A stretch of DNA of 9,289 nt from Pseudomonadota bacterium. GTDB lineage: Bacteria; Pseudomonadota; Gammaproteobacteria; Steroidobacterales; Steroidobacteraceae. This document shows positions 3,621-7,670 of the stretch, piece after piece. The stretch lies in NCBI GenBank assembly GCA_021815905.1, contig JAKAZP010000075.1, forward strand, positions 1 to 9,289. The letters are read 5' to 3'. The notes below the pieces were generated by a model, which saw nothing but the letters and a program-made list of their open reading frames with translations, was not told the origin of the DNA and did no database searches. The stretch's first letter is position 1. The number at the start of each line of letters is the position of its first letter. The translations under genes were made by a program, and so were the position numbers.

Positions 3621-3654
3621 CTGTCATGAATCTGCAACAATATGCCTCTGTAAT
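3621..3654 (+). promoter_or_regulatory. Pho box plus -10 element, phoB promoter
   Basis: CTGTCATGAATCTGCAAC (3621-3638) is a PhoB-binding box: a perfect CTGTCAT half, the AT-rich linker GAAT, then CTGCAAC, an 11-base direct repeat. TGTAAT at 3649-3654 matches the -10 consensus at five of six positions and begins 10 bases after the box, the geometry of E. coli Pho promoters, where PhoB replaces the -35. The predicted start is near 3661, about 22 bases before the phoB ATG. This implies that phoBR activates itself when phosphate is scarce. Confidence 0.8.
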
Positions 3655-5781: not shown

Positions 5782-5799
5782 CTGTCATGACGATGACAT
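5782..5799 (+). promoter_or_regulatory. Candidate Pho box (also a perfect inverted repeat) upstream of the metallophosphoesterase gene
   Basis: CTGTCATGACGATGACAT: a perfect CTGTCAT half-site followed 11 bases on by ATGACAT, which matches CTGTCAT at five of seven positions. The same bases form a perfect 6-base inverted repeat, TGTCAT-GACG-ATGACA (5783-5798). The linker is less AT-rich than usual and no good -10 lies about 10 bases downstream, so this is weaker than the phoB box. It lies 48 bases after the phoR stop and about 47 bases before the next start codon. Confidence 0.45.
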
Positions 5800-5846: not shown

Positions 5847-6641
5847 ATGGCCGATCGGCGACGCAGTCTCCGGGCGAGAACGCTGTTCCTTTCCGACATC
5901 CACCTGGGGTTCCCGCGCGCCAGGGTGACGGAGCTCAACCTTTTTCTGCGCGAGGTCGAGGCCGAATGCATCGTGCTGGTCGGGGACATCGTCGACGCCC
6001 TGAGCCTCTCGCGCCGCCTCTTCTGGAACGCCGAGCACATGCAGGTGGTGCGCACGCTGCTCGCGCGACGCCGCGCCGGCACCCGCCTCGTCTATCTGCC
6101 GGGTAATCACGACGCCTCCCTCGGGGTGCTCGCCGAGATGCTGCAGGGCCAGATCGAGGTCCATCGCGAATGGGTGCATCGCACGGCGCGCGGGGAGCGG
6201 CTGCTCGTGTTGCATGGTGACCGCTTCGATGGCGAGATGCCCTGCCCGCGCGGGCTCCAGCGCCTCGGCGACGCCCTGTACGAGGCGACCGTCATGCTGA
6301 GCCACAACCTCAATAACGCGCGCCGCGCGCTCGGGCGCCCGTACTGGCCGCTGGTCGAGCGCCTGAAGCTGAGTTTCGGGGCGAGCGCGCGCTACGTCGG
6401 CGCGTACGAGGAACTCGCCGCCCGGCATGCGCGCGAGCAGGGCTATGACGGGGTGGTCTGCGGCCACATCCATCGCGCGAATCTGCGTCGGATCGACGGC
6501 ACGCTCTACTGCAATACCGGTGACTGGGTGGAGTCCTGCTCGGCGGTGGTGGAGAATCGCGCCGGCGAGCTCGAGCTGCTGCGACTGCCGCCGCGCACCG
6601 ACCCCGCGCGCGGTGCGGCGCCGATCGCCGAAGCCGCGTGA
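5847..6641 (+). CDS. Calcineurin-like metallophosphoesterase of the COG2908 (LpxH-like / PlcP-like) superfamily
   Basis: 264-residue cytoplasmic two-metal phosphoesterase. Metal and active-site motifs are complete: SDIHLG (D17, H19), GDIVD (D47), GNHD (N87, H88), HGDRFD (H123) and CGHIH (H207, H209), followed by YCNTGDWVES. Automatic annotation would probably say UDP-2,3-diacylglucosamine diphosphatase (lipid A synthesis). The NTGDWVES ending, however, is typical of the paralogous group that includes Sinorhizobium PlcP, a PhoB-controlled phospholipase C that breaks phospholipids down to diacylglycerol during phosphate starvation. Position between phoR and phoU, a Pho-box-like site upstream and the glycosyltransferase remnant immediately downstream all favour the PlcP-like role; that is inference. 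The start at ATG 5847 has GAGGGG five bases before it. The stop overlaps the GTG of the decayed gene as GTGA. Confidence 0.85.
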   Translation: MADRRRSLRARTLFLSDIHLGFPRARVTELNLFLREVEAECIVLVGDIVDALSLSRRLFWNAEHMQVVRTLLARRRAGTRLVYLPGNHDASLGVLAEMLQGQIEVHREWVHRTARGERLLVLHGDRFDGEMPCPRGLQRLGDALYEATVMLSHNLNNARRALGRPYWPLVERLKLSFGASARYVGAYEELAARHAREQGYDGVVCGHIHRANLRRIDGTLYCNTGDWVESCSAVVENRAGELELLRLPPRTDPARGAAPIAEAA

Positions 6642-6828
6642 GGATCGCGCCCGTGTCCGACGCCTGAGGTCACATACGGCGGGTTCCTCGCTGTCACCGC
6701 TCCTCGCCGGCATGCCGCGCCCGATCATGGCCTGCGTCGGGCGGCTCGCGGTGGAGAGGAACCTCGAGGCCTTCCTGCAGCCCGATCTGCCCGGAACCCC
6801 GCCGCTGGTCGGAGACGGTTCGCGGCGC
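6638..6828 (+). pseudogene. Remnant of a GT4-type glycosyltransferase gene (Agt-like)
   Basis: Two pieces of one glycosyltransferase remain. From GTG 6638, overlapping the upstream stop, codons read MRIAPVSDA and then TGA at 6665-6667; in this family the start is typically MRIxxVSDAW followed by a PQVNGVV-like stretch, so the stop stands where Trp is expected. A second piece, in another frame (about 6703-6828), reads MPRPIMACVGRLAVERNLEAF and then DLPGTPPLVGDGSRR, the well-known PRPxxxYVGRxAVEKNxEAFLxLDLPGxKxVVGDGP core at the start of the sugar-nucleotide-binding half. Only about 40 bases separate the pieces, where an intact gene would have close to 200 codons, and everything after VGDG is gone. 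So there is a stop, a frame change, an internal deletion and loss of the 3' end. Family assignment rests on recalled consensus, not on a search. Confidence 0.75.
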
Positions 6829-6869
6829 GGGGGCGCCCGGTCAGCGCTAGCGGTCGGCGCGCTTTCGGC

Positions 6870-6875
6870 TATCAT
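6870..6875 (+). promoter_or_regulatory. Candidate -10 element for phoU
   Basis: TATCAT matches the -10 consensus at five of six positions and would start transcription near 6882, about 20 bases before the phoU ATG. No -35 hexamer or Pho box is visible at the right distance. If used, it gives phoU-dsbB a promoter of their own, separate from phoBR. A lone CTGTCAC half-site at 6691-6697 has no partner repeat. Confidence 0.35.
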
Positions 6876-6902
6876 CCGGCGCAGAGCCGGAGACATGCAC
6901 TG

Positions 6903-7670
6903 ATGGAAACCGCGGATCTCAGCCATCACATCTCGCGCCGCTTCAACGAGGACCTCGAGCGGGTGCGCAGCAAAGTGCTCGCCATGGGCGGGTTCGTCGA
7001 GCAGCAGCTGCAGAAGGCGATCACCGCCCTCACCGAGGGCGACAGCTCCCTCGGGGAGTCGGTCGCGCTCGGGGACTACCAGGTCAACAACATGGAGGTG
7101 TCGATCGACGAGGAGTGCAGCCGGATTCTCGCGACCCGCGCCCCGGCGGCCGGGGACCTGCGGGTGATCGTCGCCATCATCAAGACCATCACCGACCTCG
7201 AGCGCATCGGGGATGAGGCCGAGAAGATCGGCTACATCGCCTCCCGGCTCGCCAGCATGGAGCGTCCGGCGGACAAGTACCGCGAGATCAAGCACCTCGG
7301 ACGTCTGGTCTCGGAGATGGTGCACGACGGGCTCGACGCGTTCGCGCGCATGGATGCGGAATCGGCGCTGCGGGTCGCGCGGCAGGACCGGCTGGTCGAC
7401 GAGGAGTACGAGGCCGTCCAGCGCCAGAGCATCACGTTCATGATGGAGGACCCGCGCACCATCCGGCGCGCCCTCGATGTGATGTGGGTGGTGCGCTCGC
7501 TCGAGCGCATCGGGGACCATGCCAAGAACATCAGTGAGTACGTCATCTACATGGTCTACGGCAAGGACGTGCGGCATACCTCGCTCGATGACGTCGAGCG
7601 CGAGCTCAGGCAGCGGGGCGCCGGCGGACTCGAGGCCCCCCCGACACCGGACCCGGTGAGCGGAGCATGA
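6903..7670 (+). CDS. phoU: Phosphate signalling complex protein PhoU
   Basis: 255-residue cytoplasmic all-helical regulator, slightly longer than E. coli PhoU (241). It links the Pst phosphate transporter to PhoR and keeps the Pho regulon off when phosphate is sufficient. It has the two repeated three-helix PhoU domains, each with the metal-binding ExxxD signature: LERIGDEAEKI at 99-109 and LERIGDHAKNI at 200-210. It begins HHISRRFNEDLERVRSKVLAMGGFVEQQL, the usual PhoU start. The ATG at 6903 is preceded by GGAG about ten bases upstream; the tiny out-of-frame ATG-CAC-TGA just before it overlaps the start as TGATG. pstSCAB, its usual neighbours, are absent here; the closest genes are the glycosyltransferase remnant upstream and dsbB overlapping downstream. 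The C-terminal 25 or so residues are low-complexity and probably disordered. Confidence 0.95.
   Translation: METADLSHHISRRFNEDLERVRSKVLAMGGFVEQQLQKAITALTEGDSSLGESVALGDYQVNNMEVSIDEECSRILATRAPAAGDLRVIVAIIKTITDLERIGDEAEKIGYIASRLASMERPADKYREIKHLGRLVSEMVHDGLDAFARMDAESALRVARQDRLVDEEYEAVQRQSITFMMEDPRTIRRALDVMWVVRSLERIGDHAKNISEYVIYMVYGKDVRHTSLDDVERELRQRGAGGLEAPPTPDPVSGA

Follow-up and report, generated by a model that had tools for sequence, protein, structure and literature searches.

What does the seemingly empty gap that separates mpe, a metallophosphoesterase gene, from phoU contain, and how did it come to be there? The window, by which we mean the whole 9,289-base stretch of DNA that was analysed, carries what we take to be the gene order dinG, tsaB, phoB, phoR, mpe, gap, phoU, dsbB and then, on the opposite strand, dapE. 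The assignments of mpe, phoU and the dapE-like peptidase have a Pfam basis, and dinG, tsaB, phoB, phoR and dsbB were named from sequence and order. An earlier sequence-only reading had proposed that the gap hides a decayed glycosyltransferase (GT) gene, lost recently and in place as the last member of a two-gene unit. The gap, 261 bases long, does hold pieces of a GT4 glycosyltransferase gene, in order and in the place where relatives carry that gene, and the loss recurs in the clade. We regard it as well supported that a probable agt gene has decayed in place here to a pseudogene, one among several separate losses and an ordinary kind of event. The features on which the argument turns are the following:

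5782–5799, forward strand: Pho-box-like site upstream of mpe, CTGTCATGACGATGACAT, which agrees with CTGTCATNNNNCTGTCAT at 12 of 14 positions, the top score in the window, as a consensus match only.
5847–6641, forward strand: mpe, an intact calcineurin-like, PlcP-like metallophosphoesterase gene (Pfam PF12850 and PF00149 above cut-off).
6638–6667, forward strand: head remnant of the GT gene, with a GTG start overlapping the mpe stop, codons 1–9 and then TGA; the start position is as in intact genes.
6697–6828, forward strand: middle remnant of the GT4 gene, residues about 175–218, in another frame than the head, PLLAGMPRPIMACVGRLAVERNLEAFLQPDLPGTPPLVGDGSRR, supported by tblastn matches.
6841–6903, forward strand: probable tail remnant of the GT gene, the last ~20 residues (SALAVGALSAIIRRRAGDMH and stop), with the stop overlapping the phoU start (TGATG).
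6864–6875, forward strand: TTCGGCTATCAT, putative extended −10 of a phoU promoter (TATCAT at 6870–6875).
6903–7670, forward strand: phoU, intact (PF01895, 7.7e-44); the phoU of relatives is 85–94% identical.

The GTG at 6638–6640 overlaps the mpe stop TGA at 6639–6641 (GTGA), and the head frame reads VRIAPVSDA* with its TGA at 6665–6667. As shown by an alignment of intact relatives, column 10 is an invariant Trp in 20/20 genes and the window has TGA there, in agreement with the coupled start and early stop at the family Trp that had been described from the sequence. A second GT4 piece, which had likewise been placed in another frame, was found as the middle remnant. In tblastn searches of the whole 9289-base window all 21 in-locus GT proteins of relatives matched it (E 2.9e-16 to 3.7e-11), with matches starting at 6643, 6694, 6700 or 6703 and ending at about 6828, and the next best match in the window had an E of 0.10. 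The best score against the 261-base gap was 68.9 bits, and the maximum in 1000 dinucleotide-preserving shuffles was 32.0, with none of the 1000 coming near. The middle piece is up to 77% identical to an intact homologue (P0207). The tail lies in one frame with the middle, resembles the LAV..xSAII...AGD end of intact genes and has a conserved core, TTCNGYTATVAT. Taken singly, the 9-residue head is weak (tblastn E about 0.75), and so is the DNA similarity of the tail, the score of which was reached by 1, 26 and 240 of 500 mononucleotide shuffles against loci L001, L002 and L012, respectively; the weight of both ends therefore comes from their position.

The same place was compared in relatives by scanning contigs with an alignment of 15 mpe proteins, which gave 27 loci. 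One outlier (L025; 41% mpe identity, another context) entered neither the GT-A counts nor alignment A2, leaving 26 close relatives. In 20 of these an intact GT4 gene of 361–367 codons, here called GT-A, occupies the same place and strand, as had been expected of relatives if the window had lost such a gene. Their start codons overlap the stop of mpe (GTGA, ATGA or TTGA), and they end at phoU or up to about 20 bases before it. Pfam PF13439, PF13692 and PF00534 were above cut-off in both GT-A proteins scanned (L001 and L004). The shared place, strand and start overlap bear out the proposal of a loss in place and not an insertion, and in 20/26 the intact GT forms an overlapping pair with mpe. In L026 the GT gene (343–1473) is frameshifted near its 3′ end and reads into phoU, which may be early decay or an assembly error; this locus was kept outside alignment A2 but was counted as GT-A-bearing and included among the 21 tblastn queries.

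Five of the 26 close relatives are GT-less at the locus, with gaps of 109 (L013), 71 (L018), 38 (L023), 125 (L024) and 163 bases (L027). A search of 148 relatives of one genome revealed one further GT-less locus of the near clade, in genome G067 (L065/L073), with a gap of 91 bases, so that 6/27 near relatives lack the gene in addition to the window. Outer relatives do not all have the pair: a GT of the GT-A type adjoins mpe in two of the seven loci L066–L072 (L066 and L070), and another of the seven has a GT of other subtype beside mpe. The GT near mpe in the outgroup locus L076 (5773–6924, reverse strand) is also of another subtype, 53% identical to the L025 GT, so mpe may have changed partners within the wider group.

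The history of the losses was followed on a phylogeny built from eight proteins (2510 columns). The GT-less L013 is sister to the GT-bearing L014 (support 95), and L018 is placed within the GT-bearing L006/L007 group (78 and 100). The window forms a branch of its own that groups with the GT-bearing clade, apart from the GT-less L023/L024/L027/L073 group and from the outgroups (100). A tree constrained to place the window among those GT-less loci was worse by 34.9 log units (AU p 4e-6 in a full constrained search, 0.0003 in a fast search), and a loss common to the window and these four loci was rejected on that ground. If the gene was not regained, the tree positions imply at least three separate losses, in the window, in L013 and in L018. 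The leftover tails of L013 and L018 align to the gene tails of their intact sisters, with 0/500 mononucleotide shuffles reaching the score in each case, and the L013 tail is also clear as protein (E 1e-6). The gaps of L018, L023, L024, L027 and L073 yielded no GT piece as protein better than E 0.008; the case for in-place decay in these five is therefore one of position, joined in L018 by DNA similarity. The record behind L007 (DOUU01000383.1) is titled Deltaproteobacteria and falls on the tree among mostly Gammaproteobacteria-titled records, so it is perhaps a mislabelled MAG.

Two observations go beyond the sequence-only reading, namely that the loss recurs in the clade and that a conserved DNA element lies ahead of phoU in the 3′ end that is left. 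With both strands counted, 28 occurrences of the core TTCNGYTATVAT were found in the 268,639 bases of 28 loci; 26 of them lie 39–114 bases before phoU, one each in 26 loci, and the other two lie inside genes (in L008, where the contig ends within phoU, the position was assigned by hand). This TATSAT element is present in all seven GT-less loci: L023 and L073 carry variants of the 12-base pattern, and the other five, the window among them, match it exactly. Where the GT gene is intact, the third base of codons 348 and 350 is T in 20/20, and these are the sole columns out of 365 with T in at least 90%; among the Ala/Val codons of the same genes the share with a final T is 7%. The stretch ahead of phoU is under constraint at the DNA level, and TATSAT is probably the −10 region of a putative phoU promoter lying inside the 3′ end of the GT gene.

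We consider it unlikely that TATSAT is instead a conserved part of the GT protein, or an mRNA or terminator signal. It does encode Ser-Ala/Val-Ile/Met-Ile in the intact protein, and its varying distance from phoU fits a promoter less well. However, a role in the protein is at odds with the retention of the element in all seven loci that have lost the gene, and also with the silent T in every intact gene at two codons of a kind that so seldom end in T. With TATSAT as the putative promoter, both ends of the lost gene would have been kept for their second use as signals: its first bases form the stop codon of mpe, and the phoU promoter would lie in its last ~60 bases. In L023 the end of the variant TATGAT lies 7 bases before the ATG of phoU, and the phoU message would be nearly leaderless there were this a −10.

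Bacterial pseudogenes that decay in place generally show an early stop, deletions and a relaxed substitution pattern, and the window remnant shares all of these. It differs from the general case in that both of its ends appear to double as signals of the neighbours and in that the remainder before phoU is alike across separate losses. The open frame is destroyed by the TGA at codon 10, the frame change from head to middle and missing bases, and the gap is about 835 bases shorter than in relatives, with 261 of about 1096 bases left. These losses would correspond to the stop at codon 10 and presumably at least two deletions, of roughly codons 11–173 and 219–340.

Over its 44 codons the middle piece has a mean identity of 64% to the 21 in-locus GTs, which are themselves 75% identical to each other there. 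The ratio of first- plus second- to third-codon-position differences is 1.11 in the remnant vs. 0.50–0.97 in 20 intact genes, and 3/15 invariant residues are changed vs. 0–2 of 15–17 in a leave-one-out comparison of the intact genes. These values point to relaxed selection on the remnant, with the modest weight that 44 codons can carry. No such relaxation is seen in mpe, where 4/129 invariant residues are changed (0–7 in the 12 relatives compared). That the loss was recent, as had been suggested, is plausible on the identity values, the changed invariant residues and the relaxed codon pattern, in relative terms only.

The same measurements bear on the possibility that the organism carries an intact gene and that the short gap is an assembly error, arising from a collapsed or misjoined contig or a wrong stop, which we judge very improbable. 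The late frameshift of L026 may be an error of this kind; yet in the window about 835 bases are missing, six relatives are GT-less here as well, and the substituted invariant residues and relaxed codon pattern are not what misassembly would make. Least credible is a functional short gene, in which a 63-residue protein (ATG 6712 to the stop at 6903) would be a GT fragment with a new role: the frame 6427–6903 is open and takes in both middle and tail, but long frames are common by chance in the G+C-rich window (36 ORFs of at least 80 aa), no homologue was found at E up to 10 among proteins 0.55–1.75 times its length (five word-sharing candidates, none scored), the middle piece is absent from the gaps (38–163 bases) of the other six GT-less loci, and the part around residues 250–275, which we take to be catalytic in GT4 enzymes, is gone. 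In a Pfam search the 158-aa frame-1 ORF across the gap gave only a TT virus match (E 2.9), and Rfam and tRNA scans of the window gave no matches.

The decayed GT-A gene formed a pair with mpe. The usual database label of mpe is LpxH (UDP-2,3-diacylglucosamine diphosphatase), a member of the same superfamily. This identity was rejected, as mpe scored 26.9 and 21.9 bits against NCBIfam LpxH equivalog cut-offs of 134 and 190.35, respectively, and a separate, distinct LpxH was found above cut-off in 6/9 relatives searched. A search of PDB with the mpe alignment gave no matches. A protein 99% identical to mpe (P0001) is encoded on a 1550-base contig.

As to regulation, the mean best Pho-box score was 10.27 before mpe and 9.91 before phoB, and lower before phoU (8.37) and before the control genes tsaB (8.05), dsbB (8.00) and phoR (7.48). 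Before mpe the score was at least 10 in 20/26 loci and 9 in the other six, at varying positions. The consensus used, CTGTCATNNNNCTGTCAT, is as printed in PMC8528852. A further Pho-box-like site in the window (3621–3638; 11/14) overlaps position 3626, where phoB starts in the mechanical gene call. Translation of phoB probably begins further on, at the ATG preceding PAKLILVVEDE, and a Pho box would then lie ahead of phoB.

In PMC4796936 the commonest neighbour of plcP is given as a GT homologous to agt, and plcP–agt pairs are also described in PMC9239053 and PMC8528852. In the plcP–agt operon a metallophosphoesterase gene, often labelled LpxH, is followed at once by a GT4 gene and preceded by a Pho-box-like site, and the mpe–GT locus is built likewise. 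Unlike the published pairs, this one lies inside a phoB–phoR–[mpe–GT]–phoU arrangement, and the GT of the window is broken.

Among the 120 GT homologues listed, four were named 1,2-diacylglycerol 3-alpha-glucosyltransferase/glucuronosyltransferase, most of the named ones being general glycosyltransferases, and the best NCBIfam match of both GTs scanned was a lipid GT model, far below its cut-off. In plasmid records a GT stands beside the mpe homologue in Methylobacterium bullatum (L097) and, of the L025 subtype, in Thiodictyon (L098), and none does in Mitsuaria (L096). Judging by adjacency, names and the Pho box, mpe and GT are likely to be a plcP–agt lipid-remodelling unit. In the intact pair, PlcP would cut phospholipid to diacylglycerol and Agt would add a sugar, giving phosphate-free glycolipids under phosphate starvation. 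PF13444, which we take to be the family of the ornithine-lipid acyltransferase OlsB, was used as a marker of an alternative phosphate-free lipid route and was found in 0/8 genomes (2/14 control genomes). Among the papers listed on plcP/agt, pho neighbours and Steroidobacter lipid remodelling, no title or abstract opening names the locus.

Whole-genome searches revealed a second, related GT (GT-B; 56–61% identical to GT-A) elsewhere in 4/6 GT-less vs. 2/21 GT-bearing genomes (Fisher p 0.011, a value that ignores kinship and comes from draft genomes). In these counts the second GT of G005 (locus L027), a partial match at a contig end, was scored as present, and a weaker homologue in the GT-bearing G013 (170 bits) was not scored as GT-B; the partial L039 was left out of the GT tree. 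A derivation of the window remnant from GT-B was rejected, as its mean identity is 64% to GT-A vs. 50–59% to GT-B.

The second GT adjoins an aminotransferase III gene and the phosphatidylserine decarboxylase gene psd in 5/5 genomes with flanking DNA. A GT belonging to this clade also adjoins the aminotransferase gene in two outer genomes, indicating that the second GT is old. The GT-A-bearing G016, G022 and G023 have the aminotransferase III/psd locus with no GT within 1.5 kb. A second GT4 beside aminotransferase III is seen in L036 (4473–5522, reverse strand), L037, L038, L040 and L041 and in the outer L077 and L079; where flanked, the second-GT locus holds psd and a methyltransferase-like gene and is possibly a lipid locus in its own right.

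Loss of GT-A was probably tolerated through redundancy with this second GT, and the genome of the window may carry one too. Whole-genome searches of the GT-less G002 and G067 found no second GT, which speaks against redundancy. In G002 (contig C52, L094) aminotransferase III is matched at residues about 20–151 only, with a stop, and this genome may have lost both GT loci. The other separate losses of GT-A in this gammaproteobacterial clade fall mostly in genomes with a second GT beside psd.

Taken together, we hold with considerable confidence that the gap is the decayed and deleted remainder of a GT-A gene that formerly made up, with mpe, an overlapping and probably Pho-regulated pair, most likely plcP–agt, and that this gene was lost separately elsewhere in the clade. 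We give even weight, for and against, to a broader proposal, that a glycolipid gene carries the phoU promoter in its 3′ end, so that this end must stay after the loss, and that cells of the clade tend to keep one of two GTs, beside plcP or beside psd, repeatedly losing one or the other. If true, such alternating loss would at times couple glycolipid synthesis directly to PlcP and at times uncouple it.

From inside the pho locus of a clade represented here by metagenome-assembled genomes, one half of a probable lipid-remodelling pair has been lost. The locus can be tested as an example of a promoter, here the putative one of phoU, that lies within upstream coding sequence and sets a limit to gene deletion, and the lineages with and without the gene form a natural set in which to study the role of PlcP in the absence of its usual partner.
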